Assembly (NCBI RefSeq): GCF_036785885.1
Contig: NC_092312.1
Coordinates: forward strand, 14,030,001-14,094,000
DNA length: 64,000 nt
Direction of reading: 5' to 3'
DNA from: Coffea arabica
Taxonomy: Eukaryota > Streptophyta > Magnoliopsida > Gentianales > Rubiaceae
Shown here: positions 32,081-62,477 of the stretch, piece by piece
Position numbering within the stretch: position 1 is the stretch's first letter
How the letters are laid out: every line of letters begins with the position of its first letter
The notes under the pieces: model-generated
What the model was told of the DNA's origin: nothing
The model's input: the letters and a program-made list of their open reading frames with translations, nothing else
The model's database searches: none
Program-made: the position numbers and the translations under genes

Positions 32081-32289
32081 TAGAAGATGCTGTTGAAGAC
32101 AAAGTTGACTAACATTAATTCAAGTTCTAAAAACAAAAATCAATTCAAGTTGCTAAAAGAAATTTATAAGAATATTATGATCACGAATAATCAAAGTCAT
32201 AACTGAAGCAAATTCTTATAAATCAAGAAATTCTCACCATGCTTTAATTAATTTTGGATCAATGATTGGTTGATACGTTATCTCTGCAT

Positions 32290-32442
32290 AGCTGAATTGC
32301 CGGGCAAATCTCCTTTGGCAGTTAGCTTATGATTGTGGCTGACTTAGTAGCCAGCCTGTAAGCTGTAATTAGCTCAAGCATCAAGAAAATGTAACCAAAT
32401 TATAAGCTCCTGCCAAAGGAGTAGTTGCCCTGTAATTCGGCT
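32290..32442 (-). ncRNA. MIR399: MIR399 precursor hairpin, locus A
   Basis: Primary microRNA for miR399, which guides cleavage of PHO2/UBC24 mRNA during phosphate starvation. On the minus strand the 3' arm (32320-32300) reads TGCCAAAGGAGATTTGCCC followed by GG, a canonical miR399 isoform. The 5' arm (32430-32409) reads GGGCAACTACTCCTTTGGCA plus GG, the expected star strand. The arms pair over 11 bp and then 6 bp around a small central bulge. The stem extends at the base (GAATT with AATTC). The loop is about 88 nt, within the range of plant precursors. The upstream P1BS and TATA box support this strand. This is one of the two most intact loci in the cluster. Confidence 0.9.
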
Positions 32443-32490
32443 CCACACTTCCAACTCCATTGCTGCATTGAGCAAGTTTTAGGTTGGAAA

Positions 32491-32562
32491 TATATTTATA
32501 GGCCACGCCCAAAAAAAAAAAAAAAAGGCCAGCTGTTTGTTCCATGCAAATAGTATATCCTG
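32491..32562 (-). promoter_or_regulatory. MIR399 locus A promoter: P1BS and TATA box
   Basis: On the minus strand, GGATATAC (32560-32553) fits the PHR1-binding site GNATATNC. About 55 bp downstream is TATAAATATA (32500-32491), which lies about 60 bp before the star arm. The same spacing and flanking 'tgcaggatatactatttgcatggaac' type context recurs at loci C and E. Confidence 0.8.
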
Positions 32563-35500
32563 CAAACATTCGTATTCTGGAACTTTTAAAGAGAAAGCTT
32601 GGTTGAATTCCTTCTTCCATATTACCTCAACCCAAAAAAAAAAGTAGGAAATTTTCAGGAATTTCCCAACAAAATTAAAATTAGAAAAAAAGAAAAAGAT
32701 AATGGGATATTCTTGGCATTTCCGGGCTGTGCTGTTCCGTTCCATCCTGGGCGGTCCAAGGTACTGATGAAGAAAACCACTCTTCCCAAATCAAAGACAC
32801 AAACAACCAGCTCTTTTCCGATCACAGATATTAGGGTAGGCTGTGGTTGTTGTATACTGCCTTTGGTGTAGGGCTTAGTTTTATGTATTACAAGTATCAA
32901 TATAGACCCATGCATGTGTGTCAAATTTGGATAAATTCATGAAAAAAAGAGATTAAATTTAAAATAAAGCAACTTTTGTAAAAATAAAAAAGGAGAAGGA
33001 AGTTTTGAAAAGTCAATAACGTAGACTTTGTTCATAGTAAATATTACTCGTAGTAAAAATCTTTAAGTGGATAAGGGTAGGGCAATTTGATGGAAAAAAC
33101 AATTAGTCTGTTTGGTTAACGTAATTTGCAAAAAAAAAAAAATTGAAATATTATTCAACTTGCATCATAAACGTAATTTTCAACCATTTTTTTTATTTTA
33201 CATATATCATATCATAAAAAATGCTAAATATTTTTTCTAAATAATCTCCAATCCAAACACACAAAATTTTTCTGTGAAGTAACAAAAGAACATCTACATG
33301 TTTTCTTCTTTCATTTCTTAGGATTCTCTTTAAGTGTTTATCATGGCTGAGAAGTACTATGGAAGAGCTATTAATTACCAAATACAAGTCTTTTTAGAAA
33401 TCATTTGAATATGAAATATAACAGAAGGTGGAACCTTGCTCTTCTTTTGGCTAAAAGTGATGGGGGTCAAAACAGTAATGAAAATTTTGGCGTGCGCCTC
33501 TTTATTAATTAATAACCAAGGTTACTGATACAGACCTTAAAGTATTTCGTACTTTGTGCACTAAAGTTTTGAGAATTGCAGGAATAGTCCTCGGCATTTA
33601 TAACTCATATTATTTTAGCTGCTTTATGTATAAAATGATGTAATTTGGTCCTCAAAATTTTGAAATTGTAAGAATTTGCTCCCAAATTCTACTCCTAGTT
33701 CTTTTTTCCTTTTTTAAGCCTAAAAAGTTCACGCACAAATTTATGTTCAGGTAAATTGATGCATAAATACAAAACTAAACAACTTTTTTCAGTAAAATAT
33801 ATATGAGCTCATGTATTTTCTTTTTGGAAAGTATTGGATCCAGAGGAAGTTCTTGGAAGGTGCATGAGAATATGCTGTGCGCATGTGCCATTCTTTTTGG
33901 AAAAACATTACGGATTTACATTTATTTCCCATTAATCATTGAGCAAATGTTGTTGTTTAAAGCAAAAATTACGTTGAAAAATGAATTGAGGTCAAGCAAT
34001 TTTTCCCGTTGAAAAATACATAAGGACTGAAAGAGTATAACTCACCATGAGGGACTGTTTCTGCAGTTTTCCCTTAATGTTTTGTATGTTTTAGACATAA
34101 ATAAGCCCTCAATGCAATTACAAACATTTAAAGCCGCAATTAATGTTTATAGCGTAATTGTTTCGCTGATAGTGGTCAAATCATTTGAAATCGAGTGTGT
34201 CTTAGAAGAATTTCTTCATCTAGTGGAGGAAAACTAAACAAAGACTGATAAGAAAGAGAAAAAAAGGAGGAGCAAATTAAGCAAAGGAAATCGCAAAATA
34301 TCTCAGGCTCTTTTGCTAGACACTGATGCCCTCCAAACGCGTTCATCCGAGTTTAGAACAGTGGAAAACACGGATTTTTTCTGCAGCTTTTAAGGCTATA
34401 ATCCATGCAATACTAATTTAGTTAATTACCCCAACCACTTACATTACCCTGCAAAATAAGAAGGGTCATTTTCCATGGCCCTCTGATCTTCAAAGAGGCA
34501 GATAAACTTAGTTGAAAGATCAAATGAACTGGAAAGTGAGAGAACTATCTACAACAGCTTTTCACTTTATACTAGATGATGATTATTGACAACTGAGAGA
34601 AGAAAAAATTATTATAAGAAAAAAAAAGATATGAAACAGCACATTCCTAAGATTCAATAGCATTTTCTCTTTGGTCCACTCATTGCTTGTCTGTTCTAAC
34701 TTTGTGGCATTGAAGAACAAATTCACCTCAGTTAATTGCCTCAAAAGTCACTTAAAGATTTTATCACGATATTGTTTAGTCCTGAAACTGTTGAACCTAT
34801 AAATTCCATTAACTAGTATATTAGGAAAATCAAATTGGTCCCTTGGCAACGCTATAAAAGCCATATTTACATTTTAACCTACATTTTGGAACTTATATGT
34901 CATGACTTCTCCAAAGAAATTCCTAAAAGCAATTCTATGATGAGAAATGGTAATTGTCAAAAACTATGCCACTTGTGAGTTTCTTCTAAGTTGAGATGAA
35001 CTTATTTGGACTGTGGTTTGGTGCAAAATCCATAGTTTTTCTAGTCATATTTTTACAACTATAATTACTTGTTAGCTATATTGCTCTAAATTTTAATTAT
35101 ATTTCGTATGTGTAATTAATTCTCTTTAAGATCACATAGTGAAATTTTTTTTAAAGCATTAAAGTCAACTTCAAAGAATGATCGTTCTTTTTGTCAAAAA
35201 CTCAGTGTTTGAGTTGTCAAAAAAACTTTAGTGACTCGATTGGATCCACAAAGATTGGAAGATTAAGCACTAAAAATTGATGAACCAGTGAAAGAGAACT
35301 TAAGATCAAAATGTAGGGACTTCGAACGTAATTTACCCTTCAATTCAACTCGGGTGACCTATTGGATTCCATAATCCTTATGCATGCACGGATGCATGTT
35401 GAAATTTGCCGAATGTACGGAAAGAATTATACTTCGATTTGTAAAGTCATCAAATGAAAGCCAGGAAGTATCAATTGACAATTTCTGCATAAAATCTATA

Positions 35501-35737
35501 TCGCTTTCATTAGATTAAACAAGAAGAAGCTCCCCTTCAAGGCTAGGAAGATCACACATAATAAATCCTGCTAAAAGTCGAGACGTCCATGATATTTCTT
35601 CAATCTTCGTCAAGAGAATCTGAATCACAAAAAAAAAAAAAAGAAATAAAGTCAATAGACGTGAAAAGTCTTCCACAAAGGTATTGCTGGGTAATGGTGG
35701 GAATCGGAACCATATATATACTAATGGAATTGTCCCA

Positions 35738-35800
35738 GCATATGCCATTTCTTTCTTTGGCATATCCAAATTGAAGGTCCGGATATTGTTTCTATAAAAG
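35738..35800 (+). promoter_or_regulatory. MIR399 locus B promoter: two P1BS and TATA box
   Basis: GCATATGC (35738-35745) and GCATATCC (35760-35767) both fit GNATATNC. They are 22 bp apart and followed by TATAAAAG at 35793-35800, about 65 bp before the hairpin. The same pair occurs at locus D, and the first site is kept at locus F. PHR1 control under low phosphate is inferred from the motif. Confidence 0.82.
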
Positions 35801-35842
35801 GGGTTTAGCAATCTCGAGCTTTTGTCTGAATCACGGAGGCAA

Positions 35843-35965
35843 ATTGTGGTGTTAAGAATAACAGTGTGATTCTCCTTTGGCATGAAGATGTATAGATGCA
35901 TAAAATTGCATGTGTAAGTTACTCCATGCCAAAGGAGAATTGCCCTGCCATTCGCTCTCACAGTT
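35843..35965 (+). ncRNA. MIR399: MIR399 precursor hairpin, locus B
   Basis: The 3' arm (35927-35947) reads TGCCAAAGGAGAATTGCCC followed by TG, a canonical miR399 isoform. The 5' arm at 35869-35884 (ATTCTCCTTTGGCATG) is its perfect 16-bp reverse complement, followed by a loop of about 40 nt. The lower stem is less well paired. It is transcribed away from locus A; the two promoters face each other across about 3.2 kb. The open frame on the opposite strand here (35515-35961) is a shadow of the hairpin and flanks. Confidence 0.9.
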
Positions 35966-35999
35966 CATTTCAACGTGTTAAAATCATGTAGCATTCCAA

Positions 36000-38900
36000 T
36001 CTGTGGGATTTAACTGAGCAGGTTTGGTTTTAAATTTTTGTTCCTTTTGCGATTCAACAAATATTTATTACTCAAATTGAAAATGCATCTTGATTCGACT
36101 TTTTTTTCTTACATACTCAATTTGTGAATTACAAAAGTGCGGTAGGTGTTATAGTACTTGACTTGGAACCAGATTTTTGCATGTCGGAAATTAGTTCTCT
36201 GAGATTCCATTTGAATGGGCAGTAGTTCCATCATCTTCACTCTACAATTTTATTTTTTTTTTGATAGATTGAATATCTTCATGCTTAAATTTTTTTTTTT
36301 TTTTTTTTTTTGTAGTTTACGCAGCAAATCTTTTTTCTTAATTAAGACATTTTAATTTTATTATTGGGAGAACACTAATATCACTTTGTTTGTTCCTTTC
36401 CAACCTCATGTTGTCCTCTGTAAAGTGTTTCATTTCCTTTAACTATGGGGGAAAATTAATTAGAGTTCGGCAATATTGTTAGCACGAGAAAATGAATAGC
36501 TTTTCGCTTTTGATAAAAGATTTCCTTCTAAGATTATGCATGTCTAGGCATTCTTTGTTTGTGTAGAATTGTGATCAGCCGCATATAGTATACTTATCCC
36601 ACATAGAAGAATAAGGTTTTCGGAAATATATTTCCACACTGAAGAATGCCACATAAGTCGTTCTTAACAGTGAATTTTACCTACTAAATCTGAAAATTTT
36701 GTCGCCATAAAGGATGTTCTAATTGTCTGTATACCAATTGTGGAAGTGGAATGTATGCAACATATAAGCTTATTTTATTTTATTAATATAATTTTCTTTT
36801 TTACATGTGAGGTTATTTCTTTGCCAAAACAAATAAATATAACTGGAAATTTAAGGTCCCTATCATTAATAATACTCAAACAAGGCTAAGGAAATTTTAA
36901 GGAACAAAGCTGAACTTCTATGATTGCAACCACGGGATCCATCTCAAAAGGATACTGATATGTTTCAAAGCCTGAAAAGTCGAAAAGAAAAGATTATAAC
37001 TTAAGAACCTAATTACTGGCATGGCCGGTGAATTCTTTTAAGGCCATCATCCAAGAAAGTGGTCAGTGGAATATATAGTCTCCTCTCCTTTGCTTCATAA
37101 TACTTGATATTCTTGCGTCTTCATCAATCCCTCTCTTTCAGTATGTCTACGCAAACAGATTCTGAAGGAGGGCATGTTTTTTCGAAGAGGGCTCTAGTCT
37201 CAAGCAGCAGATGAAGCCTCTCTGGTGAAACCTGGTGGAAATCGTCCCACCCGGTTGGGATCCTCAGGCGCTACTTGCTGAAATCACCTTTGCATTTGTC
37301 TTCCATTGGAAACTCTACAAACCTGAAAACAAAGAGCAGAGCGAAGAAGTCCCAGGGAATCTGCACCCCAAGGATTCTCCGACGCTCAAGTCAATTAAGT
37401 ATTTAGCGGACGGGTATGAAGCCATGGAATTAATTTAATTTTTTTTTATTATTATTATGTTCTTTACAAATAGAAGTAAATACAAAGATAAAGATCTGTT
37501 ACAGAATACTTTGTGTTAGGAAGAAGCAAAATTTTTTCCTTCTTTTTATTTATTAATTTTTAAGAAGGGAAACTTAATCAGCGAGAGCTACTGAGATTTG
37601 GGTTAAGACTAAATGAATTGTGTTAGCATATATATAATATACTCCTTTTGTCCCATTGAAAATATCATATTTTTCTTTTTGTTCTATTATAAAACTACTG
37701 TCACTCACCTAAATTATGAGAATATATGCATACAAACACGTGTAACTCAATAATTTAAGGAAGAGAGCAAAAATGACCAAGTGTCTTTATGTTGACAGAT
37801 AGGAAACATTTTTCAAATGCTTGAAAAGGAAAGTGGACAAAAATCATAAAAAGTATAGTAAGAAGCAAAAATTTGATATGCACTGTAATTGTCATATTAT
37901 CCATTGCTTAATTACCACATGCCTATTTTGCATTGGGTTCCCAGTGCATGTTACCAATTTGATCTAACATTAATGTTGGTAGCCTTGTTTTGTTTATGTC
38001 AACAAATTGTTGATAACTTGCTTGAAACTTCATTTAATTTCCTCCTAATCCACAACAATTTTTACCTTTATTGGGAAACAATCCTATATTTTCCTTTCCA
38101 ACCCCAAATGAGAATTACTCTGTTGGGTCATTGCCTATTCTATCATTTTTGTGTTTTCCTACCTTGTGATGAAATACATGACCAAAACAGTAGTACGCCA
38201 TCAATAACTCGACCTAATAGATCTTTCTACCAGCGCAGTTGGGAATTATCAATTATGTTTTCATTAACTTACGATGGCTTTACTTACTAAAAAAAAAACT
38301 TAGGATGGGTCTACAGGAGTTGTACATTAATTTTACAGCAACTGGACAAATAATTGAGTCAACATCTACAAAATAAATAGTTTATTTTCTCAATCTCTAG
38401 ACTAAATAAATTGTCTTTCTATAAAATGAAACATTGTACTCAAAAATCAGCAAGGGGTGATCAGTAAAACATATAGCTTAACATCTATTGATTTATGAAC
38501 GTTTGCCCTCGACAAAATCAATTTTATGGCAAGATAATCATGTGTCTACCTTTTACGAAGCAGCAAACATGATTACTCATGAACATTAAATTGATGGTAA
38601 ATTGCTATGTTTAGTGTGTGTATATATATATCAGTTCGTTTTCACTTAAAAGAAATTTTATAGCACTCCATTATATAACTCATAAATTAAAAAAATAAAT
38701 TATTAAAAATTTACTATTATGAGGAAATAAATGGACGGTTACCAGTATATTTACCGTATTTCAAAAAGATATGCTACTTGTTTGAAGTAAAATCTGGAAT
38801 AAAAAAACTTATTCTTTTAACACTACTTAGGAATGTTTCTTTTTGAACTAATGTATTCCTTACTCGCCGCCTTTTTTCTTTAAGATAGAAAATTCACATT

Positions 38901-39580: not shown

Positions 39581-39937
39581 TCTGATTACTGTTAGAAGAT
39601 GCAGTGGAGACAAAGTTGACAAACATTGCAAGTTGGTAAAAGAAGTAGTATTATGAAATTGAAGAAAATGCTTAAGTATTAGTACCAACGATAACAGTTT
39701 AAGACAAAGTTGACCAACATGATCACGGATTCACGAATCCATGTACTCCATAGACAGAACCAGAAAAAATTTCTTGAAATGGCGAATTTAATATACCTGA
39801 ACTTAAATGTATAACTTAAAATTTTTTAGGTTTTTATGGGGGGCAAGTTATAATTTATAAAGAGTGTTTTTGAAAATTTTTAATTTTGTAACGGGGGAAA
39901 ATTGAATTTTATACACTTTTCTGTTTTGGTTTTTTTT

Positions 39938-39956
39938 GGGGGGGGGGGGGGGTGTG
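39938..39956 (+). repeat. Poly-G tract
   Basis: A T-run followed by an uninterrupted run of about 18 G, then GTGGGGTGGGG. It lies in unit 2, left of hairpin C. Confidence 0.9.
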
Positions 39957-40074
39957 GGGTGGGGATGTGATCCGTCCCTGAATTGAACTCAGAAACCATA
40001 TAGAGGCTAACGGAAGAAAATGGTTAGGTAGTACCAAATTAAACCTTACCATGCTTTAATTCATCTTTGGATGG

Positions 40075-40165
40075 ATGGATTACTCGTTGGGCAAATCATT
40101 TACATATAGTCAGCTGAAAATTAGCTTCTGCCAGAGGAGTAGTTGCCCGGTAATGCAGCCAGAAA
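40075..40165 (-). pseudogene. Decayed MIR399 locus C (mature arm lost)
   Basis: On the minus strand the star-side arm survives as GGGCAACTACTCCTCTGGCA. On the mature side only the end of the miR399 sequence (GATTTGCCC) remains. The CTCCTTTGGCA complement and most of the loop present at loci A and E are missing, as if deleted. A normal precursor cannot form. Confidence 0.75.
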
Positions 40166-40213
40166 CTTCAACTCCGGCCATTGGTGCAGTGAACAAAGCT
40201 TGAGGTGGAAAAT

Positions 40214-40266
40214 GGATATATAGGTCATGGAATAAGCCTGTTTATTCCATGTCAACAGCATATTCT
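40214..40266 (-). promoter_or_regulatory. MIR399 locus C promoter relic: P1BS and TATA-like box
   Basis: On the minus strand, GAATATGC (40265-40258) fits GNATATNC, and a CCTATATATCC TATA-like box follows at 40223-40213. Both are in the same order as at locus A, so the promoter seems retained although the hairpin is broken. Confidence 0.65.
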
Positions 40267-40984
40267 GCAAAAAGTGAGTTTAATTTCTTCATCAATAGTT
40301 GTTAAACTGTTGGATTCAGGATTTTTTTTCTCTTAAGAACTGACACTTCTTGTGTCCCTCCATGATGAAAGAATGAGTAGCATATTCAGGAAAAACCATA
40401 TTTAGTGTATACTGAATATATAATTCTAGAATTATCTAACTACGCCGAGAGAGCAAAGAGTAAAATGAAGATAAACCATCATACATAGGTAGTTCTTTCA
40501 TGGTAAATTTATGTTCCCTTTACATATAATAGGCTGATCTATAGCATGATATATACCGTAAGTTCGGTATCCTTCACTGTTGAAAATACGTGATTTTCTC
40601 CTAACAGTAGTTAGCCTTTTTTTTTTTTTTTTTTGTCAAACTTTTGGAGGAACGAAGCTTTTACAGCGTGAATAAATCCAAGTTCTTCACCAAGCAGAGA
40701 GAAAAGTGTAATAATATGGATGGATTTCTTTATCTACATGGAGTAAATAGATGACAGGAGTCGACGGATGTCTTATATATAGTGCCTTCAAGAGATTTGT
40801 CATATCAATGTTTTAAAAGGCGTTTCTTAGGAGAGTCATCGGGTGAGGCTTAGGGCGGGCGACGATGGAATGGGGGCGCAATTGTTATTGGGGGTCAGAT
40901 TATTTTCTTTCTTGATTTCTACCAAAAATTCTTTTTATGACTTTTTTTTTTTTTTTTTTACACTAGCGGCACATCTGACCTAGC

Positions 40985-41104
40985 CTATCCTACTCCTACT
41001 CCTAAGAGGGGGGACTTACTATAAGGGAAGCGACTCTGGGGAGTGGGCCAATTGAGTCTACTCCTACTCCTAAGAGAGGGGGACTTACTGTAAGGGAAGC
41101 GACT
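40985..41104. repeat. Tandem repeat of a CTCCTAAGAG...GACTTA unit
   Basis: Units of the form 'actcctactcctaagag(g)n-gacttact(a/g)taagggaagcgact' occur at about 40985-41037 and 41057-41104. A third partial copy resumes at 41910-41950 on the far side of the hAT element, showing that the element inserted into this repeat. Confidence 0.8.
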
Positions 41105-41112
41105 ACTCCTAC

Positions 41113-41909
41113 TAGGGATGGCAATGGGGGCGGGTGCCCCGCCCCGCGGGGGGCTCTCGGGGCGGGGGTTGGGGCGGGGGGTGGGGCGGGGGCGGGGGGG
41201 AATTTTTTCCCCCCGCTTAGAAACGGGGCGGGGGGCGGGGGAGTATACCCCCGCCCCGCCCCCCGCAAAACAAAAAAAAAATTAAAAATATATATAATTA
41301 TATATAACATATAAGTTAATTAGTTATAAACTTATGATAATGATATTATTAGTTAGATATACTATATAATGTATATTAGTTTATGTAATATAATTGATAT
41401 AATCAATTATATGAATAATTCTACATGTCTACTAATAGAATTTATTAATTAGTTATATTAAATTTACTAATATATTTATACTAAATTTCTAATTACACTT
41501 AATAGAATAACACTTTTTTCTAAAAAAAAAAGCACAAACACAATAATGAATTAGTGATTGCATTTGTACTAAAAGTGAAAACTTGACTATTTTAGTTATA
41601 TTTATTTCATCATATTGGATTGTATTAAAATAACTTTTGTTTGATTATTTTTATGAGTTTCAATTGTAAAATTACAATAAATAATAATTTGGTGATGTGT
41701 TGATATTTTAGTACTTGATTATTTATTAAAATTTAATTATAATAAAATTATATAATAAAATTTTATTAACCCCGCGGGGGCACCCGCGGGGGAAGCGGGG
41801 CGGGGCGGGAGGCGGGGGACGGGGCGGGGGACGGGGGGAACTAATAGGCAACGGGGCGGGGGACGGGGGAGGGGTCCCCCGCCCCAACCCCGCCCCGTTG
41901 CCATCCCTA
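41113..41909. mobile_element. Non-autonomous hAT-type element with GC-rich ends, 797 bp
   Basis: Terminal inverted repeats TAGGGATGGCAA...TTGCCATCCCTA are flanked by a perfect 8-bp target duplication ACTCCTAC (41105-41112 and 41910-41917), the hallmark of hAT transposition. Subterminal regions are dense runs of GGGGCGGGG and its complement, while the core (41270-41770) is very AT-rich. There is no transposase. The open frame at 41002-41310 is low-complexity. Confidence 0.92.
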
Positions 41910-41917
41910 ACTCCTAC

Positions 41918-42715
41918 TCCTAAGCCTACTCCTAAGAGGGGACTTAATCACCATCTAATCAGACGGGTGCACTACTCACCCGCATGGATTTAGAACACTC
42001 CTTATATTGAGGTACATTGATGGGAGGTAAGGTTTGAACTTTTGATCTCCCACTTCACAATATACAGTGGTGGCCAACTCCTCTATTGGGAGTTGGTTTT
42101 TTTTATGACTTTGTTTCCTATACATTTTTTCCCTTGATGCCAAGATATGGTTATTCTCTGCCAACATACTAGATGACTGATGTACTAGTTATCCTTTAGA
42201 CTTTGACGCTTCATTGTTTGTTTTTATTTGTTTTTTTTTTATTTTAAATGAACGTAATCCGTGGGTTTGAGAAAATGAGTATTAGCTTTATTATTGGGAT
42301 ATTTCTATGGTCATAAAATCGCGCGCAAAACTCTTAAAAAAATATATTAAGATTAAGGATTTGAATTTATTGCTTAAATTTGTCATTTATGACTTTATTG
42401 CTTAAGTTTGCAATTTTATATTTGAATATGACTATGTAAACCGAGTTTGTTTGAAACATTGAAGGTTATATTTTTTGCGTTATGATTTTGCTTTTTAGGT
42501 AAGAATAATTTTTTAATAATGTTTCTTAATTTTATTTAAATATTTTTCTCTAATACATATATATATTTTGTAACTGTTACCATATTATTTTACTTTATTG
42601 TATTTTTAAATACTTAAAAATTAAAATTTGTGAGGCCATGCCTTGAGGTTTTCGTTCCGTTTGGACAGATATAAAACTTCGACCCATACCTTGGCCTTGT
42701 AAAACGTTGATCATA
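41918..42715. other. AT-rich spacer inside unit 2
   Basis: No supported gene or structured element. Homology to the other units resumes near 42720. Confidence 0.35.
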
Positions 42716-42904
42716 TTTGAGCACTCAAAGCATAAGGCGCTGTCTGCTAAGAAAATTAAGTTCTCCTTATGGGCTGTCTGTGGATGGCTTTCTACTCTTC
42801 AAAGAGGCAAATCTTGTTAGAGGCCAGAATAAGCTGGAAAGGGAGAAAAGGTATCTTAAATATGCATTTGACTTTATATATACCTGCTTGATCTGTGCTG
42901 GCAA

Positions 42905-42990: not shown

Positions 42991-43000
42991 GTGTAGGAGC

Positions 43001-43364
43001 TAGGGCTGTTCACGAATCAGCTCGAACTCGGTCAATATCGAGCTCAAGCTAATCAAGTCAAAGTCGAACTCGAACTCAAAAATATTCAACTCGTTACTCG
43101 CGAGCTCGATTATATATATTTTTTATTTTTTATTTTAATAGTAAAATTACACATATATCTCTAATATATTATTCGTTAAAAAATTATTATTTTATTCATT
43201 TTTAAAAATAAAATAATTATTTTTTATAAATAAAATAATTATTTTTATTTTATTTTTTAAGCTCGAGCTCGAGTTCGAGTTCGAGTTCAAGTTTCATAAA
43301 ATTAACTGAATGCTTGACTCAATTAAGCCAAAATTCGACTTAATCCGACTCGTTTGCACACCTA
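43001..43364. mobile_element. hAT-type MITE with GAGCTCGAG subterminal repeats (diverged copy)
   Basis: The left end TAGGGCTGTTCACGAAT and right end CGTTTGCACACCTA form the same kind of termini as the copies at 50738 and 52731. Subterminal 'gagctcgagttcgag' repeats flank an AT-rich core. The expected 8-bp flanks (GTAGGAGC and GCGGTAGC) match only partly, so this is probably an older insertion. It sits between the conserved blocks of unit 2. Confidence 0.75.
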
Positions 43365-43830
43365 GCGGTAGCGCATGCACCCTTATGGTACCATAGTATG
43401 CATCCACTCATTTCTAGCTTCAATTTCAGCCCCTGAACTTTCAAGAACAACTGTCCATATACATGCATGCATGTCGACATTAAGGTAATGTACGGACAGA
43501 ATTATGGATAGATTTGGAATATAATCGAATGGAAGATGGCCCGGTATTAGCAACAAAGTAATTAATATTACACAGACAAATCCTACTACAGGCATGCTTT
43601 TTTTTTTTAATTATTATTATTAAAGAGAAGAATCTCTATCCATTTTTCCAAACAAAGACATATAATAAATCCTCGTAAAAATGAAGACACGATTTCAATT
43701 CTTTCAATGTTCATCAAAGGGCATCTAAATCACAAAAAAGCAAAAATGTGTAGACATACAAAAGTCTTGCACAAGGGATCGCTAGTGATGGAGGGAATCA
43801 AAACCAAGGATGAGTAAAAGAATTGTCCTA

Positions 43831-43890
43831 GCATATGCTAACTCTTTCTTTGGCATATCCAAATTAAGGTGCGGACCTTCTTTCTATAAG
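43831..43890 (+). promoter_or_regulatory. MIR399 locus D promoter: two P1BS and TATA-like box
   Basis: GCATATGC (43831-43838) and GCATATCC (43853-43860) both fit GNATATNC with the same 22-bp spacing as locus B. They are followed by TTTCTATAAG at 43881-43890. Confidence 0.78.
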
Positions 43891-43951: not shown

Positions 43952-44054
43952 TGTGGTGTAGGACTAACAGTGCAATCCTCCCTGTGGCATGAGGTCAATG
44001 CAAATGCATACTTCATCATGCCTAAGGAGAATTGCCCTGCTATTCACTACCACA
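43952..44054 (+). ncRNA. MIR399: MIR399-type hairpin, locus D (seed variant)
   Basis: The 3' arm (44019-44039) reads TGCCTAAGGAGAATTGCCC then TG. It equals locus B except for A to T at miRNA position 5. The 5' arm (GCAATCCTCCCTGTGGCATG) pairs imperfectly, but the lower stem TGTGGT with ACCACA is clear. With a seed change and weak pairing it may be a diverged miR399-like gene or a decaying one. The promoter is intact. Confidence 0.65.
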
Positions 44055-44621
44055 AGTCATTTGCATACACATTGTGTTCATTTTCCTTGAAAATTTTTCT
44101 TGAAAAGGAGAAGTATAATTTTTTTGAGACGCCATCGCGACATTCATTACCATGTTTTCCATTCCATTAAAAGAGTTCATACTACATATTCGAAATTTCG
44201 AATTGCATGATCATTTACTTCGAAGAAAAAACTTTTCACTTACAAAAAAAATGAGCCAAAATTTTACTTCACTTGACTTTTCTTGTGCACTGTGAGTCCC
44301 AATGCTTCTTCTATATCTAAATCCTCAGCAAATATTCCTTCACGAAGTGACCAATTAAATAGAGCCAGAAGATTAGCAACGACAAGATCAATGAGTGGGA
44401 CAGAAAAATCAATTCCAGGACAACTCCTCCCTGTCCCGTACCGGATCAGCTCAAAATTTTGCCCCTGGAATCCACCGAGCTATTGAAGAATCTTTCTGGC
44501 TTGAAGTCATTTGGCTTTTCCCAGAATGTAGGGTCAGTAGCAATTGAAGCTCTTGTTTTGACCAGAATTTGGAACCCTCCTATCATGCAACTCTCAAGAG
44601 TTTCTCTAGGAACAAGTAAAG

Positions 44622-45600: not shown

Positions 45601-46327
45601 ATTAAGGATATGCATATTATAAGTATTCCTTTAATATTTTTATTTTGGTTAGACTGATTGCTTGGGCTGCATCTCCCTGGATTCGGAGCAATACATCAAC
45701 AGGATCATCGTGCTCGGGTTTAATTCTCTGGGGATCGTGATGCTCCTGTATTAACTTGTCAAAGAAATCATCCAGCTCCCTGAAGTTCTTATCGAGCCTT
45801 GAGTCCAGGGCATTAAACTTGTTAGGCCATTCCATCGATTCAAAAAAATCAGCAATATTGGGTTCAACTAGCAAGTTTTGTGGTTCATGAAGAATTGCAT
45901 GGAATCCGCTACTGCCACCATGACTACGACCAAAAGCAGGACGACAAATAACATTTTTGGAGAGGGTAAAAGACAGTTAGCTAATGTTGATAGAAATATT
46001 TGGTGAACAAGATAGTAATGTGTTGACCACTGAAGCCACCTCTTCATCACAAATTGCCTTAAAAGATTGCACTCTTTTTGCACTTAGCAACTCCAAGACT
46101 ATTATTTTTCTCATCTCCCCCCCCCCCCCCAATATTCACCATAGCGTACGTGCAAATGATAGGGTTTCGACTGAGAAATGCTACTCAGACTAGTGCCTCT
46201 GTGGCATCATTTCCATGATGGGATGTTTGTCGTCTTTTGAATGAGCCTAGTCGAATGCAATAAGAAATTTATTTAGAGATACTTATTTGGCCGAAAGTAG
46301 TAAAATAGGATAGGCTTATAATTAATT

Positions 46328-47675: not shown

Positions 47676-49191
47676 TTAGTTGTCATGATGCCAGACCAAT
47701 GCAGGATCAAGAAGAGTTGTGATGGAACCAAGATCTGCATGATTACGATCATCATGCGAAAGCCATCTTGGACAAGAGTTGGGAGAAAAATGGTTGGCCT
47801 CAGCCTCATCATTGGTCTCAATGTTGGTACCCTCGGTCCCAACCTCATCATTGGTCTCACCGTTGGTACCCTCTGCTACTCTCTCGATAAATTCGTGTTC
47901 GAATCCTCCGAAATCCGTGTTGAGAAAATCCAAAAGGAACTTGTCCTCGATTTCGAAATCCATCATGAAGCCCGATAAGTAGCCTTCTTCTCCGGGAAAA
48001 ATTGGTAGTGATTCCTTTACCCCACCTGAAGGTGGCTCCGGACCAACGGTGTTGTTATGACCAGTAGGAGTTTTGTTGAAGTTGTTTTTGGCATCACTGC
48101 TGGGCGGTGGAGCTTGAGCTTTCACCGCCATAATAATACCGGCTTGTTCTGCACCTGCAGAAGCTTGCAAGTCTGCGTTGATGAAAACTTTAGTGCACCT
48201 CCTAGCTTTGGTTCGGATCACAGGAGTACAGAAGGATCCAAGCTTTTCTGAATTTGGTGGTTTGTCAGCACTCGTTAAATTTTGCAGTACTGCTGATCTG
48301 GACCTAGTTGATGACGGTTTGCGTTTTGTGCTGGAGGAGCTGTCTAAGTGTTGGCTGTCTTGAATTTGAATTTTTTTGACGATGTTGGTGTTCCAATAGT
48401 TCTTGATCTCATTGTCTGTTCGTCCCGGAAGCCTTCCAGCTATCAAAGACCACCTGCAAGGCAACACTGATGACCCTTAACTTAAAGATAGGAATTAGGA
48501 ACATAGGAATGCTGTAGATGTTGTGATTTCACTTCAGCATGATACACTTTCTCCCCCAAGTATAGAGCCCAATTTTTAGGAAATTGAAAGAATTTTATAT
48601 ACGTCCATGACTTTCAAAGATACAGCGTCTAAGAATCCTAAAAGCCTATACCTAACAACTGTCAAATTCTCGACAAACTAGGTAAAAGTACGTGTTGGCC
48701 CATCTGCTACACATCACGCAGAAAAAGGTATCGTTACCGGTGCCAGAATGCCAACAAAATGTAAAACGTACATATCAAAGTAAGCATGAATGGTGAAATG
48801 ACAGGCCTGTTTCCAAGGAGCTTGTGTAGCCTGATTATGAGGTCCTCTTCATCATCGGTTATGTTTCCTCTCTTGATATCAGGTCTAAGATAGTTCAACC
48901 AACGAAGTCTGCAACTCTTCCCGCATCTTTTGAGACCTAGTTTTTCGCCAGTTAATTTACACCGAGTAATACGAGACTTCAGCTTTTTTATTCCACTATA
49001 AACACTTATCAAGCACCTCAATCATCATGCACTTAATCTGATCAAAGTAGTAACTGACCTGCTCGTTTGGCAAGACTTGTCCATTTTCCTGCGCCGTGGG
49101 ACTGGACATAGTCTCTTAGCATTTTATCTTCCAATGGAGTCCAAGCCCCTCTGTTTAAGCCTTCCCTAGCACAACATGGGCGTCTCCCCAT
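47676..49191 (-). CDS. R2R3-MYB transcription factor, TT2-like (subgroup 5)
   Basis: Predicted nuclear regulator of proanthocyanidin (condensed tannin) synthesis, acting with bHLH and WD40 partners as known for TT2/MYB123. Exons 49191-49059 (133 bp), 48936-48807 (130 bp) and 48453-47676 (778 bp) give 346 residues. The first two lengths are the classic R2R3-MYB pattern. The start is [12 protein letters not shown]2 ends near [10 protein letters not shown] and R3 near [10 protein letters not shown]3 carries the bHLH-contact signature D76-L77, R80, L84, L91, R95. The subgroup 5 motif [12 protein letters not shown] is at 166-177. Intron 2 starts GC rather than GT. A 13-residue acidic segment (EGTNxETNDE) is duplicated near the C terminus. 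The acidic tail is plausibly the activation domain. Confidence 0.9.
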
Positions 49192-50722: not shown

Positions 50723-50737
50723 AACCAAAATGGGAAA

Positions 50738-51197
50738 TAGGGCTGCAAACGAGCCGAGCCGAGTCGAGCTTTGAGCTAATCGAGCCGAGCCTCGGCTAAA
50801 TTTTATCAAGCTCGAGCTCGACTCGAATCAAGTCGAGCCGAGCTCGAGCTCGAAAAAAATAAAAAAAAAATTATTTTATTTTTAAAAAAATAAATAAAAT
50901 AATATTTTTTTCTGAATAAATAATAAAATATTAAGGATATATCCGTAATTTCACTATGAAAATAAAAAATAAAAAAAATATATATATAATATACGTAATT
51001 TATTATTAAATAAAAATAAAAATAAAAAAAAATATATATATACTCAAACTCGCGAGCCGGCTTAATATTCTGAGCTCGAGTTCGAGCTCGAGTTTGACTC
51101 GAGCTGGCTCGAGCTCGACTCGAGCTCGATTAATGTCGAGCTCGACTAGAGCTTGGCTCGAGCCGCTCGCGAGCGGTTCGATTCGTTTGCAACCCTA
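50738..51197. mobile_element. hAT-type MITE with GAGCTCGAG subterminal repeats, 460 bp
   Basis: Termini TAGGGCTGCAAACGA...TCGTTTGCAACCCTA (imperfect inverted repeats) are flanked by a perfect 8-bp target duplication ATGGGAAA (50730-50737 and 51198-51205). Long subterminal arrays of GAGC(T/C)CGAG flank an AT-rich core. No protein is encoded. Confidence 0.95.
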
Positions 51198-51205
51198 ATG
51201 GGAAA

Positions 51206-52720: not shown

Positions 52721-52730
52721 AACTCGTATG

Positions 52731-53243
52731 TAGGGCTGCAAACGAATCGAGCGGCTCGCGAGCGGCTCGAGTCAAGCTCGAGTCGAGCTCGAGTCGAGCT
52801 CGATGTTAATCGAACTCGAGTCGAGCTCGAGCCGGCTCGAGTCAAACTCGAGCTCAGAATATTAAGCTCGTTAGCTCGCGAGCCGGCTCGCGAGCTTGGG
52901 TATATATATATATATATATATTTTTTTTTTATTTTTATTTAATAATAAAATTACGTATATTATATATATATTTTTTATTTTTTATTTTCATAGTAAAATT
53001 ACGTATATGTCCTTAATATTTTATTATTTATTAAGAAAAAAATATTATTTTATTTATTTTTTAAAATAAAATATTTATTTTTTATTTTTTTTCGAGCTCG
53101 AGCTCGGCTCGACTTAATTCGAGTCGAGCTCGAGCTCGAAATTTGCCGGCTCGTCGAGCTCGAGCTCGAGCTTGGCAAAATTTAGTCGAGACTCGACTCG
53201 ATTAGCTCAAAACTCGACTCGGCTCGACTCGTTTGCAGCCCTA
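52731..53243. mobile_element. hAT-type MITE with GAGCTCGAG subterminal repeats, 513 bp
   Basis: Termini TAGGGCTGCAAACGA...TCGTTTGCAGCCCTA are flanked by a perfect 8-bp target duplication CTCGTATG (52723-52730 and 53244-53251). It is in opposite orientation to, and closely related in sequence to, the copy at 50738. A local duplication of 'taataattcaatcggccg' brackets the insertion (about 52701 and 53264). Confidence 0.95.
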
Positions 53244-53259
53244 CTCGTATGTCACTCAT

Positions 53260-53740: not shown

Positions 53741-53744
53741 AATA

Positions 53745-55925: not shown

Positions 55926-55929
55926 CACC

Positions 55930-56630
55930 AAACAAACTTGTAAGGACAGGTTACATGCGTCCTGATGAACTAGTGAATAAAACCAGTCTTTTTTTTTTTT
56001 TGGGTGGGTAGAATTCTTAAAAGATAGGCAAGAATGTATCTAATCCCCGAGGTTCTGTCAAGCTCGCTTTTAAACAAGGGGATCCCTCCCAAACAATGTC
56101 ACAAGTTTCATGATCCATGATTTATCGGTAGTGCATAACACAGGTTCTGGTCTTGAATACAATGAATATCAGGCAAACCATTACAAGATTTTGCAATAGT
56201 AGAACAAGTTGGTTCGCCCTTCAACCAAATGGTGAACATGCACAAAGAAACTGACTCAACATGGTCAATGAAAAAAATTAGAGGCCATCAAACTATTTAT
56301 TGCCGAACAGATATGTGGTAAGCATCCAATTATACGTCATAAATAGCACAATTATACAAAAAGATGGGAGCATATATGTGGTAGGAGAGTATCAAACAAT
56401 TTTTGCAATACACGCGTAAAACTTGTCCTATTTTAGTCTTTAAAATATAAAGTTTTTCACTTTAGTATAAACATCGGCCAAAAATTTCACTAAATGGAAT
56501 AATTTTATACCTTAGAAACTAAAGTATCCCACTTTAAAATTTAGGTATAAAGGCAGGAATTTGAGTATAGTTGAAAAGTACAAAGTGAAATTAACCTATA
56601 TTCTTTGATACCCCGGCCAAGGATCCCAAT
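55930..56630. other. Spacer left of duplication unit 3
   Basis: No gene is supported. 56405-56597 resembles the right half of the MITE at 8323 (ending 'caaagtgaaattaac'). Confidence 0.45.
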
Positions 56631-56848
56631 CTGATTTTTGTTAGAAGATGCTACGGAGACAAAATTCACAAAGAATGCCAAGTTGGTAGGAGTATGTAGC
56701 AAAATACGAATGTATGTCCATGAAGTCAGAAATAACATCGAGAATAATTGAAGAAATGCTTCATACATAATAACCATATTGATCCTTAGTACTTACCATG
56801 CTTTAACAAATATTTGGCTGGATTGTTCACTAGTTGGTATAATTGTAA

Positions 56849-56986
56849 AGCTGGATCGCGGGACAAATCTCCTTTGGCAGTGAGCTTATCATTCTAGCTA
56901 GCTTGTAAGCTATAATCAGCTAAGCATTTAGAAAAGGTTAAATAACCAGCTTCTGCCAGAGGAGTAGTTGCCCAGTAATACAGCTC
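56849..56986 (-). ncRNA. MIR399: MIR399 precursor hairpin, locus E
   Basis: On the minus strand the 3' arm (56879-56859) reads TGCCAAAGGAGATTTGTCC then CG. It equals locus A except C to T at position 17 (and the last bases). The 5' arm (56973-56953) reads GGGCAACTACTCCTCTGGCA. The stem closes with AGCTG and CAGCT at the base, and the loop is about 73 nt. The seed is canonical, so target recognition should be kept. A star-arm T to C change gives one A-C mismatch. Confidence 0.82.
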
Positions 56987-57039
56987 CAAACTTCGACTTT
57001 GGCCATTGCTGCAATCGACAAGCTTGAGGGGGAAAATGT

Positions 57040-57090
57040 ACTGATAGGTCATGGAATAAGCCCATTGGTTGCATGCAAATAGTATATTCT
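57040..57090 (-). promoter_or_regulatory. MIR399 locus E promoter: P1BS, weakened TATA
   Basis: On the minus strand, GAATATAC (57089-57082) fits GNATATNC in the same flanking context as locus A. The TATA position reads CCTATCAGTACA where locus A has CCTATAAATATA, so core promoter strength may be reduced. Confidence 0.65.
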
Positions 57091-57144
57091 GCAAAACATT
57101 CGACATTCTATTAAAAATTACAAGCCACTCTAATTTTTTCATTG

Positions 57145-58000
57145 ATCATTAGCTAAACTATGTGCTTTAGTTTTTTATCCCTTTTTTTTTTTTTTTTTTT
57201 TTGGCGTAGTTGAGTCTTCCCGTTCTCCTCTCTGCCTCTTAAATTCTATCCCTTCCTTGCTAAAAAAAAAAAAAAAAAAACCAAAAAAAGGTCTTCTTTT
57301 ATTGTTCCATACTGAAAGAAATTCAAAGTATATGCAGAAAACTCATAATTATTGCATGTAAACATAAATCACATGCATTATGCTAGAATTATCTACTTAG
57401 GCGTGATACACAGAGTGTGAGTTCACTATCTTTTCATTGTTGAGATTACTTGATTTCATCCTAATAGTAGTTAGCCAATTTTTATTAAATTTATCATTAT
57501 TAGACCAAATTAAAGATGGAGAAGCAAAATGTTTTAAGCACAAAATTAATTCACGGTCCATCAAGTAGCCAGAGTGACCAAATAGCGAATTACTCTGGAT
57601 GGATTTCTTTATTTTATGAAATAAATGGATCACATTAAGATCAAGAAATAGCTAACATATGTAGCATCTAATTAAGCATAGGCTGCAAGTGGATAAAGTT
57701 AAATACTTTCTAGTCTATCCCTCCTCAGATAAAATATCAACTACAAATTAAAGGGTTGTCTGTTTGATTGCCTTCAATGTTAGGGGAGAAACATCTTGAG
57801 AGAACCCATTAAAGAGTCTAATGTGCAAGTTAAGAATTCAACTCTAAAATATCAACTAAAAAGTTTGGTAAGAAGCATTGAAGGTGAATGATGGAAAGTC
57901 GAAAAGTATGGAGATACTTGATGGTAAATCTAAGTTGATGATTCAAGGGTCAAGGAAAAGGTAGAGTTCAATGTTAATTTTGGAAGTGAATCGGTAAAGA
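57145..58000. other. Spacer between hairpin E and retroelement sequence
   Basis: Long T- and A-runs (57182-57202, 57262-57280). No gene is supported. Confidence 0.4.
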
Positions 58001-58471
58001 CTTTCTCACAACTCCAACGGTTGATATTACATCCCAGATGATTTTTAGCTTCGGATTATATTTTTTAGGTGGTGTGACATGTGTTCTAAAGAAACAAAAG
58101 AATTTAATTTTCAAATGTCAGAAAACTTTGATGGCTATGAATTTTATGTTGCGGGTGTAGTCTTGGAAACCACACATGGCGAGATAGTTCTGAGGATGGA
58201 AAGAAGTATGATAATTTTATCACTTGATTGTCTCAATGATTAGGGTTAGGGCTAGTAGTGATAAGAAATCCTGCAACGGGAGATAGTGAATTAAGATACC
58301 TTCTCGCGGGTAAACTGGAGATTGGACCCGTAGTAAATACACATGTTCATTTATCGATTAAATTAATTTAGTATCAGGACTGTATTGATTAGAATGTATA
58401 GTTCGGTACCATATTATTTGGTAGTTGAAGGCAAATAGTTGCTAAAAGAAATATTCGCCAAGGTGGAGATT
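58000..58471 (+). mobile_element. Retroelement internal tail with polypurine tract
   Basis: Sequence immediately left of an LTR start ends in AAGGTGGAGATT, a typical Copia-type polypurine tract. No intact protein is visible. This should be the 3' end of an internal domain. Confidence 0.5.
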
Positions 58472-60946
58472 TGTTAGGAAATGGGTTTAATTTCTTTTAG
58501 ACAGGTTTTTTATTTTGTGTGGAAATAACTAATTTTCTAATTGTTTTTAGTTATTTGAAATAGTAGTCAAGGAATTTTCTATTTTGTTTAGAATTTAGAA
58601 GTTATTTCTTATTCTGTACAAATCTAGAAATTAGCATTGATTTCCTGTTGTTATTTGGTTTTTGATCAAATAATATTCTCCATAAATAGATGCGTTGGTT
58701 GACGGGGTTTTTTGCTATACGTACAAGTTAAAAAACCAAATTACACCTGTTCATTGCAAGTATACAGGTCAACTAGTAGTTTAGGGTATATATCGGGTCG
58801 ATCCCACGAGAAAGAGTGAACAATTACCGGTATTACTAAATCTTCTCTATTATTTAGACTATCAATGAATTATAACAAATTTAACCTACTGAAATTATAC
58901 TAAATAACAAATGAATGCTCCTTAGGTTATGGTATCCCTAACTACTCATGCAATTGTCATTTTTGGATCATTGAATACTACATCTAAGTTAGTTATGGTG
59001 TAATTTCCTTATGCCTTTGAATCCTACTTTCGTAGTGAATCAATTATATTCACAACTAATCCATACCTATTCTCATGGTTATGAAATTAGCTATAAGTTC
59101 ATTTTTTCAATGAAATTACATGAAATTAATCACCAAAATCTCATAGGTGCACCTCTACTCTCGTGAGTATACTCCCCATGTTTAGTACTAATTGAACTAA
59201 TATTAAATCTTAATTTTCATTGCAGAAATAACACCTTAGATAATCACAATTAATGGTAATCATGATTTAAAGAGTTAAAGTGCTAAATAACTTGTTCAAA
59301 TCATAGCAGTCAAATAGCCAAATAATAAGCACTAACAATCATAAAAAGTTCAACCAAACCCAAGGCATAAACTTTAAAGACACATAAATAACATAAATTC
59401 TAGAACTTGTATATTAGCTAAATTTGGAATCAAGTACAAAAGAGAAAAAGTTGGAAAGAAATGTAACCCTTGTCACATGAGTTCATCTCCTTGCCTTCTT
59501 CATCCTCCAACCTCTTCTTCATTTAACTAATAAACAAGAAAGATGAACTAACTAGTTAAAACTATCCTACACTAAAGAAATGGAAGAACTACATTTCTGC
59601 ACTCTTCTAGCTTCTCCCGTATGATCCTTTTAGACCTCCCAAATGTCTCTACATATAAACTACTATAAAGCTCATTTTTCACTAGTCAAATTTTCCACAC
59701 TTGGTTCCTAAATCTGAAATTGTTAAGATAGTCAATAACAAATGTTTTTAACTTGAAAATAAGCCACATTTCTTGCCCTTTTGTCTTCTGAAGCATGTGC
59801 ACCGAATTCCCTTGCAACTTATAACTGGAAAGTAATCTGAACACAAGAGAAATTGCTGAGCAAATTGCAGAATTTCAGCTACAAAACGCTCCTACACAAA
59901 ACGCGGCTTGCAGTCGCGTTTTGTCAACTCGTGTTTTCAATTCTGTGTTTTTGGCTTCATTTCAACTGCAATTTTCTCTATGATGAAGGCCGAAGTAGTT
60001 TTTGTGCAAAACACAAAAGTTTTAGTCCTTTGAATTAACTTTCCAATGCTTTAAAAATCATCCAAATTGGAGTTTTGTAGATTGAGATATGACCGAATAC
60101 TAACACCTGGTCAAACCCCTGTTTTCAACTTTGCACAGCAGTGTTGAATTTTGGTATTTCGACTTTTTGACTGAGTAATCGGCTGAATTGGATTCTGATG
60201 TCTTCATACCGAATTTAGATCTATCTTTTAGCTTCAAAATGGTATAAAGATTAACTCAATCCAATATATGTAGCTCCAGATATAGTCAAAATACGAAAAT
60301 GTGTTTGAGTTGTCAAAGCTGATTTTTCTTGATTTTTTTTGTCCTCAAATTGCATTTCTTCCTTTTACACTTCATATTTTATTTTCACCACTTTAATCCA
60401 TCATCAATCATCCAAATATCTTCTCAATGCACTTCATTTGATGATTGAATCATTAAACCTATAAAATATGAAGTTTTTACCATAAAAATCAATAGAAATG
60501 CAATGTTAGCCACTTTATAATAAAATGTAGATTTTTACCAAAACAATAGTTATTTTAGTTATAAAACTAAATAATCAAGCCAAAATTAACTAATCAAACA
60601 CACTAAAAATATGTAAAATATATTCTTATCATTGGTATACTACAAAAAGACATACAAGAAGCATACAAAGGCAACATGTAGTCTTATATATGGGGATGAG
60701 AGAGGGTTTTTGGAAGATGAGAGATGGTATACAAAAATTGGGTTTGGGTTCAAGTTGTATTCTAGTATAGGGTTTTCCTTTTATAATAAAGAACGGGTTT
60801 CTCTCCTTGGACGTAGACTTAATGATATAGTCGAACCACGTTAAATGTTGTGTGTCATTTATCTTTCATATTTGTGACTGTTTGTCATTAAATTGTTGTG
60901 TATTTAATATTTCAATAGTTATTTATTCCACGTTTGAATCCTAACA
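58472..60946 (+). mobile_element. LTR interrupted by a nested repeat
   Basis: The LTR starts TGTTAGGA (58472) and ends TCCTAACA (60946), perfect inverted ends. The two LTR parts (about 58472-58725 and 60620-60946) are split by a roughly 1.9-kb unrelated repeat. An internal-type polypurine tract is on its left and a primer-binding site on its right. Confidence 0.65.
58726..60618. mobile_element. Nested non-autonomous repeat inside the LTR, about 1.9 kb
   Basis: It carries 'cattgcaagtatacaggtc' and 'gggtcgatcccacgag' near its left end. These phrases recur in non-coding plant retroelement sequences. No protein is encoded. Boundaries are approximate; a TATAC at both edges may be the target duplication. 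Confidence 0.4.
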
Positions 60947-60948
60947 AG

Positions 60949-60959
60949 TGGTATCAGAG
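60949..60959 (+). other. Primer-binding site (initiator tRNA-Met type)
   Basis: TGGTATCAGAG begins two bases after the LTR end. This is the standard plant LTR-retrotransposon primer-binding site for tRNA-iMet. Confidence 0.85.
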
Positions 60960-61550
60960 TTTCAAGTTACGAGATTGAGGCTACTCATGGTTTCAGAGTT
61001 TCAGGTTGCAAGACAAGATTACTCATGGGCAAGTGAATTCTTCTCAGAGTTGGACCGGTGAAAATTCTCTTCTTGATGGTGGATCGAAGTACCAAAGTGT
61101 TAAAGAGTTGATTAGTGTTGGACTAGGTGCACCATGACTTTGGCAGGGGGTCCGGTTGGAGTTAGGATCAAGGAGCCAAGGTTTGGCAGTGATCCATAAT
61201 ACACTTTGGATATTGAAGAAGAATAAGTCAATGATTGAAAAATGAGATGATCTTAAATAATGTGGGTTTGCATTGAGTATTAAAGTGGGCTCTTAACTCT
61301 AAAAAGAGATTGTAAACTTGGGTTTAATGTGAAGGGTTACTTATGAAGAGCGAAATTTGTTAGATTCATAAGTAAAAAAATATACATGTTTTACATTGGT
61401 TCAAGAGACGAAGAAAAAGCGATTGATATGTAAATAAAGGCTTAAGACCTAATAAATTAAACTTTTGGATTTTGGACCCTTACTTACATATTAACTGCTC
61501 TTTTTTTTTCTCAAACCAATGTACGTAGGACATAGTCTTTTACTTATAAA
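60960..61550 (+). mobile_element. Retroelement internal leader without coding capacity
   Basis: Sequence right of the primer-binding site has no gag-pol frame. It returns to unit 3 homology near 61560, so the element is non-autonomous or truncated. Confidence 0.45.
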
Positions 61551-61956
61551 CCTACCATTCAACTCTCCAAAAGGGACAAGTAAACTAGTTGGAGGCCAAA
61601 ATACACTGGAAAGTGAGACAGGTATCTAGAAAATGTACCGGGTAGAACTAAGCTTAAATTTGGAGTATCATCAAAAGAAGGAGAGCTGGGTATAGCAACA
61701 CAAAATTTGACTATACATGGCCACAAAGGCAGTTAACATGTTTTTCGAATTAGGAGAAGAATCTCTCTCCATCTCCAAAGAAGTGCACACAATATGTCCA
61801 CGTAAAAATCGGGACACGATGTTCAATTCTTTTCATGTTCATCAAAGGGAATCTAAATCACACAAAAGAAAAAAGTGTACACATATAAAGTCTTGGTCAC
61901 GGGACTGCCAGTGATGAAGAGAATCGGGACCGTACATTAGTGTAGGAATTGTACAA

Positions 61957-61964
61957 GCATATGC
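61957..61964 (+). promoter_or_regulatory. MIR399 locus F promoter relic (single P1BS)
   Basis: GCATATGC is kept in the same flanking sequence as loci B and D, followed by TTTCTATAAT. The second P1BS and the hairpin are absent, consistent with deletion. Confidence 0.65.
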
Positions 61965-62149
61965 AAAGTCTTTCTATAATAGTTTTAACTCAGAGTCCTA
62001 TAATAGTTCTAACAAATTTTTCCACTTAAGAGAAATTGTTTAACTCAAAGTTTACATTATTTAAATTAATAGGTAAATGCAAAGGAATATAGGGGAGACT
62101 AGACCGATCCAATTATTCAGACTAAACACATCTGCCACTTTATATGAAG

Positions 62150-62340
62150 AAGCAATCAAGTGAAGGAGTGTTTTCTTATGCATTGTGAGCCCCAATGCTT
62201 CTTCCATATCCAAGCTTTCACAAATGATTCCTTCAGGAAGTGTCCAATCAAACAGAAGCAGAAGGTTTGCAACTACAAGCTCAATGAGCAGGATATAAAA
62301 ATTGATTCCAGGACAACTCCTCATGGATTTAAATCTCCAA
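62150..62340 (-). pseudogene. Cytochrome P450 C-terminal fragment, CYP71 clan
   Basis: On the minus strand the translation RSCPGINF, then LIELVVANLLLLFDWTLPEG and EEALGLTMHKK, is the end of a CYP71-type P450 starting at the heme-ligand cysteine. Everything upstream of the heme loop is missing. It is closely related to the pseudogene at 44270 and occupies the same place in its duplication unit. Confidence 0.85.
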
Positions 62341-62477
62341 TCTCCTTCCCCGCTTCTTAAATCACATCCTTTCCTATTACAAGCAATTAAACAGTCATAA
62401 AAGATTTTTCACTTAAAATGTTCTAATTCTAATGAGGTTTTTATATTTTTTTGGGCAGTGGCTGGGTGTTTTGGGGG

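Follow-up and report, generated by a model that had tools for sequence, protein, structure and literature searches.

We analysed a 64,000-nucleotide stretch of plant DNA (C3:14030001-14094000, here called the window), which carries a cluster of MIR399-type microRNA genes at six positions, named A to F. The mature miR399 pattern with at most 3 mismatches had 5 matches in the window against 0.07 expected, and none of 100 shuffles reached 5; two of these matches fall at B, one per strand. The preliminary description of this DNA had proposed six MIR399-type loci on alternating strands. The alternation held within the window, but only A, B and E, three of the six positions, passed the Rfam gathering cut-off for MIR399 (57 bits).

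Two of the copies are intact hairpins. Copy A lies on the minus strand at 32290..32442 (Rfam 73 bits; minimum free energy -65.9, z -7.6 against 100 shuffles, the measure used for all folds below), with its mature sequence TGCCAAAGGAGATTTGCCCGG at 32300-32320. Copy B lies on the plus strand at 35852..35957 (70.7 bits, and also 58.8 bits on the opposite strand; z -8.4 for 35845-35965), with the mature sequence TGCCAAAGGAGAATTGCCCTG at 35927-35947. The hairpin of copy E, on the minus strand at 56849..56985 (67.8 bits, z -4.3), carries the mature sequence TGCCAAAGGAGATTTGTCCCG at 56859-56879. Copy D, on the plus strand at 43958..44049, is a sub-threshold hairpin (44.8 bits, E 2.4e-7, z -4.4), whose mature sequence TGCCTAAGGAGAATTGCCCTG at 44019-44039 is altered at position 5; mature positions 5, 6, 12 and 18 are unpaired in its fold. 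A 21-nt sequence of the TGCCAAAGGAGA-TTGCCC type is present on the 3' arm of the hairpin copies and absent from C and F, both of which are relics. Relic C, on the minus strand at 40092..40278, was recognised by nhmmer (72.3 bits, model 170-393) and by alignment to A and E, relative to which it retains the promoter and the 5' (star) arm and has lost the loop and the mature arm by deletion; it gave no Rfam match at E 0.5. At position F, on the plus strand at 61632..61975, about 340 bp of B-type promoter (70.8% to 43487-43849; nhmmer 71.7 bits, model 5-241 only) run up to 61975, the hairpin is gone, and homology to the D unit returns at 62171 in a P450 remnant. For the C and F equivalents, folding was not better than that of shuffled sequence (z +1.2 and -0.5; 100 shuffles). 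With the product lost from C and F and with D below the cut-off, the decay that had been proposed for this cluster was well supported.

The six positions form three units, AB, CD and EF, and self-comparison of the window linked the regions at 32.05-36.0, 39.58-44.43 and 56.63-62.32 kb by same-strand colinear homology. By sensitive blastn, AB and CD shared 6 same-strand blocks (top score 205 bits), AB and EF shared 3 (169 bits), and CD and EF shared 9 (192 bits). Dinucleotide shuffles, 40 per comparison, gave at most 1 block and 35.4 bits, and 15 comparisons with five unrelated stretches of real sequence gave at most 54 bits; these shuffles and control stretches ruled out a chance likeness of the three regions. 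The two reverse-strand blocks (one AB/CD, one AB/EF) both lie on palindromic hairpins, and a few short same-strand blocks were seen off the diagonal. A spacer block is common to all three units (34475..34571 in AB, 42784-42878 in CD and 61558-61635 in EF). Beyond the P450 stubs described below, a 91-bp homologous piece links 28.5-32.1 kb and 62.3-64 kb, and a 62-bp piece common to 44.1-56.6 kb and 62.3-64 kb is a dispersed repeat. This dot-plot-type check thus confirmed the colinearity claimed for the three regions.

The window holds part of a larger array. A family search through the 1.2-Gb assembly (131 contigs), in which 45 of the 64,078 candidates from a first look were scored, making all counts lower bounds, gave at least 34 MIR399 matches with the strands counted separately, at 8 places on C3, 8 on C4, and one each on C15 and C16. 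Four of the C3 hairpins are located beyond the window, about 10-21 kb from its end: G (C3 14103905, plus), H (C3:14106951-14107044, minus, with the altered mature sequence TGCCAAGGGAGATTTGCTCAG), I (C3 14111639, plus) and J (C3 14114855, minus). The array on C3 has ten positions in 52.7 kb, spaced 3-13 kb apart, in the order A-, B+, C-, D+, E-, F+, G+, H-, I+, J-. The triplication named in the preliminary description does exist as three colinear units in the window, but it is an effect of the window, since only six of the array's ten positions fall inside it. The Rfam cut-off was passed by five of the eight hairpins on C3 (A, B, E, I and J) and by six of the eight on C4, where H is added; G and D lie below it on C3 and C4 alike. 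At all ten positions the type follows the strand, the minus copies being ATTTG-type and the plus copies AATTG-type, where C and F were assigned their type from the homology of their promoters (Fisher p 0.008, for copies that are not independent). Searches by nhmmer in C3 14021001-14156000 and C4 14095001-14185000 found no extra copies or relics beyond A or J, and no A-type relic between F and G. On both C3 and C4, a sub-threshold MIR9563-like hairpin lies between I and J (L010 1878-1967, L017 8045-8134), and a tRNA lies near the single MIR399 gene of C15 and of C16 (L019 1238-1318, L020 1090-1170).

On the second chromosome copy, C4, all eight hairpins recur in unchanged order within 51.7 kb. 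The two copies aligned in 21 blocks of more than 800 bp, whose identity is 90.7-98.8% (95.2% as a weighted mean); these blocks are separated by stretches of several kb that do not align. We take C3 and C4 to be two haplotypes. It is unlikely, in our judgement, that they are instead homoeologous chromosomes of a recent polyploid, a reading that bears on the two-copy comparison only: the range of block identities and the unaligned stretches would fit it, while the similar lengths of the two contigs (76.9 and 77.3 Mb) and their common array speak against it, though not decisively. Relic C is absent from C4, where the 2.2 kb of C3 14069910-14072149 (window 39910-42149) are missing at C4 14115897/14115905. 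The E allele of C4 has the mature sequence TGCCAAACGAGATTTGTCCCG with a change at position 8 (C4:14127345-14127365), and its TATA region reads TATAAGT on C4 and TATCAGT on C3. F is a relic on both copies, and D carries the identical mature change on both. Compared with the typed mature consensus, A, B, I and J have no differences, D (position 5), E (17) and G (18) have one each, and H (7, 18) and E of C4 (8, 17) have two. These differences between C3 and C4 suggest that erosion is still under way. Intact, altered and lost copies stand side by side on two chromosome copies as a graded series in one array, and promoter loss and hairpin loss can thereby be distinguished.

The promoters carry P1BS, the PHR-binding site (GNATATNC), at which binding is predicted here from the motif; the available passages of one report describe the binding of PHR1 to P1BS (PMC4991007). 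A P1BS lies within 200 bp upstream at all six window positions, compared with 8.6% of 200-bp windows that hold one, the six copies not being independent. The site occupies a shared aligned place in A (32553..32560), relic C (40258..40265) and E (57082..57089). Upstream of B and D there are twin sites whose starts are 22 bp apart (35738..35767, with starts at 35738 and 35760, and 43831..43860, respectively), and F keeps a single site, the first of the pair (61957..61964). Among 48 sites in 135 kb of C3, we found six close pairs (12-60 bp), five of which precede B, D, G, I and J, with spacings of 22, 22, 22, 22 and 23 bp. In 90 kb of C4 (35 sites), the equivalent five pairs are spaced 22, 22, 22, 22 and 21 bp, and there is one other pair. 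The twin sites extend over C3:14065738-14115075 and C4:14111008-14159220. Since the promoters of B and I are only about 48% identical, the spacing of the twin sites looks kept. With sites two helical turns apart, a pair of PHR dimers would sit on the same face of the helix, and the 21-23 bp spacing in five of the eight hairpin-bearing copies offers a rule, open to direct test, for how PHR would control MIR399 genes. The rule fails to cover all copies, because A, C and E have one site each and H has no P1BS within 300 bp upstream, the latter being a point against PHR control of the whole cluster. A further P1BS pair, at C3:14115997 and 14116048, 51 bp apart and about 1 kb upstream of J, adjoins no MIR399 hairpin, and C4 has the like.

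A TATAWAW element was found near the expected place in A (TATAAAT), B (TATAAAA), C (TATATAT), G, H and J, and was not found there in D, E, F and I; E had none within 300 bp. Taken with the hairpin survey, E has a hairpin without the TATA consensus, and C has the TATA consensus without a mature arm. The retained P1BS and TATATAT of C would suit a reading in which C and F are alive as phosphate-starvation transcripts kept for another use, the star arm of C acting as a weak miR399 decoy. Paired with miR399-A, the C arm reaches 75% of the energy of a perfect duplex, with an asymmetry at the centre; between C and E there are differences at 2 of 37 arm sites and at 25 of 138 promoter sites (p 0.07), and both observations would also fit. 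However, the arms of A and E, being star arms, pair about equally well (73% and 70%), there is a mismatch at miRNA position 6, and C is wholly absent from C4. IPS1 mimics have a central three-nucleotide bulge, and later work found poor central pairing to be sufficient, according to the available passages of PMC6162444. We rejected C as an IPS1-like target mimic because it has one extra central nucleotide rather than the three-nucleotide bulge, together with mismatches at positions 6 and 13. Altogether, such a decoy is highly improbable. We give as little credence to a broader version, according to which the array would be an old selected regulatory cassette built around a twin PHR-binding module of fixed two-helical-turn spacing, positions without a microRNA would still fire, and the transcript of C would serve as a miR399 decoy that balances its neighbours.

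How the units arose was assessed from alignments of promoters and hairpins. The pairing of D with F had a bootstrap of 99.9% (322 columns), that of C with E had 99% on 43 downstream columns, and with pooled promoters CD and EF came together in 2000 of 2000 resamplings, which leaves AB, the most intact unit of the window, as the outgroup. The promoters of B, D and F are at a distance of about 0.7 from that of G and 0.9-1.0 from that of I, indicating that AB, CD and EF form a young part of an older array; they look like young copies, and G-J like older ones. A tree of the hairpins placed all 8 minus rows on one side of a branch, and likewise all 8 plus rows, and none of 500 label shuffles scored as low. 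J grouped with A/E to the exclusion of H (96/95), and G grouped with B/D to the exclusion of I (83/88, an open fork). Adjacent in the array, H and I are thus the outliers of their respective types, a pattern more in keeping with a divergent than with a convergent pair as the unit; the divergent phase of the repeat is favoured, not proven. The earlier proposal of one head-to-head pair duplicated twice therefore fits the longer alignments and the shared spacer block, but not the shorter proximal promoter alignment, and the phase of the repeat is not strictly provable.

Several results weigh against duplication as pairs. The pairing of C with E reached just 67% on 155 promoter and arm columns. 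In the proximal alignment, in which F covers only about 97 columns, B and D (0.27) are closer than D and F (0.32) or B and F (0.37). In the hairpin tree, weak branches (62/0, 51/33) separate the plus from the minus group, and the place of I was flagged as unsure. The promoters of H and J gave no visible alignment with those of A and E, so that pair duplication is shown for the window part only. Alternation is broken where F and G, both plus, follow each other without a relic between them. This break, the 67% for C and E, and the closeness of B and D would all agree with a different history, in which the two types were copied independently, gene by gene, and the alternation is a remnant left by inversions and losses. 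So would the spacers between B and C (36.0-39.6 kb) and between D and E (44.1-56.6 kb), which share just two marginal matches (E 0.001). Yet gene-by-gene copying would have to accommodate a spacer block inside the pair and an order common to all three units, topologies of both types that agree on the longer alignments, a type that follows the strand at ten of ten positions, and the outlying place of both H and I. We consider independent copying quite improbable.

Duplication as pairs is part of the reading that we prefer: the array is very probably a PHR-driven MIR399 cluster that silences PHO2, grew by pair duplication and was then eroded. Two paralogues, a minus ATTTG-type and a plus AATTG-type miR399 gene, would point away from each other, nearly each copy having its own short P1BS promoter that PHR factors would activate under phosphate starvation. 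The 21-nt miR399 predicted from the 3' arm would then silence PHO2; the action of miR399, PHO2 and IPS1 is described in the available passages of PMC6162444. The divergent pair would have been copied repeatedly, giving G-J as older copies and AB, CD and EF as young ones. Later copies would have eroded, with C losing its mature arm and F its hairpin, D being changed at mature position 5, and E standing without the TATA consensus. Such growth may amount to a dosage expansion of a phosphate-starvation regulator.

The preliminary description had also stated that the unit carries a P450 along. P450 sequence does accompany two of the three units, but as broken C-terminal remnants, and there is none at B. 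The stub beside D (44267..44479, minus) covers the C-terminal haem region and has an interrupted frame with a stop just upstream; it matched ferruginol synthase in the PDB (E 1.8e-5) and scored 10.5 bits with Pfam p450, below the cut-off of 22.8. The C-terminal stub beside F (62169..62336, minus) scored 11.7 bits, also below the cut-off, had no P450 among its PDB matches, and is 66% identical to the D stub over 56 aa (E 2.4e-22). Using tblastn with pieces of the stubs against the C3, C4, C15 and C16 stretches, we found copies beside D and F only, and none beside B. An open reading frame at 45617-45976 that resembles a P450 by eye was rejected, as neither Pfam nor PDB gave a P450 match.

Other features of the window include a Myb-domain gene, R2R3-like by eye, between units CD and EF (47676-49021, minus), and a CESA8-like cellulose synthase gene at 1699-7917 (minus). 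For one piece of the latter, the closest PDB chain was from entry 6wlb, which we take to be poplar CesA8. A dispersed element, probably a transposon, has inverted copies at 50738-51197 and 52731-53243 (80% identical), a partial third copy at 43111-43364, and short self-complementary stretches. A sequence of about 0.45 kb is directly repeated at 23511-23956 and 24143-24609, with 73% identity.

Compared with the Rfam family RF00445 (MIR399), the array agrees in mature sequence, 3'-arm position, hairpin score and P1BS promoter sites; it differs in that position 5 of D is changed, C and F have lost their product, and G and H miss the cut-off on C3, C4 or both. Several MIR399 genes lie close together in the Arabidopsis MIR399d/e/f cluster as well. 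Grapevine chromosome 10 carries Vvi-MIR399a, d, e, f and h according to the available passages of PMC10931670, and those of PMC2831844 give Vvi-miR399a and h as AATTG-type and d, e and f as ATTTG-type. As far as these passages go, both types thus share one chromosome, as here, Vvi-miR399e equals the mature sequence of A, and Vvi-miR399a/h equals those of B and I. The available passages also give VviCESA8 as VIT_10s0003g01560 (PMC9413262) and the MIR399a transcript as VIT_210s0003n00240 (PMC6488645), both in the 0003 number block of chromosome 10, and here the CESA8-like gene lies at about 1.7-7.9 kb of the window. The likeness suggests that the cluster and its CESA8 neighbour may be shared with grapevine and hence old. 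The number 0003 in both grapevine loci presumably denotes a shared scaffold.

In Eutrema salsugineum, four tandem MIR399a copies are reported in the passage available from PMC3604812, and, as far as that passage goes, the array there consists of copies of one gene, in contrast to the alternating pair found here. The available parts of PMC2773440 (maize), PMC6057443 and PMC9409226 hold nothing on MIR399 layout. No alternating MIR399 array appeared in titles and abstract openings on clustered, tandem, divergent, head-to-head, opposite-strand or bidirectional MIR399 layouts, which does not imply its absence from print. To call the arrangement not a standard description is therefore fair for its layout within the literature searched, but MIR399 clusters and tandem copies have already been published. 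As a gene cluster the array is of a known kind, and it is larger than the window shows; what it mainly adds is a type that strictly follows the strand, a young part next to an older one, differences between C3 and C4, and a twin-P1BS spacing that recurs among the copies.

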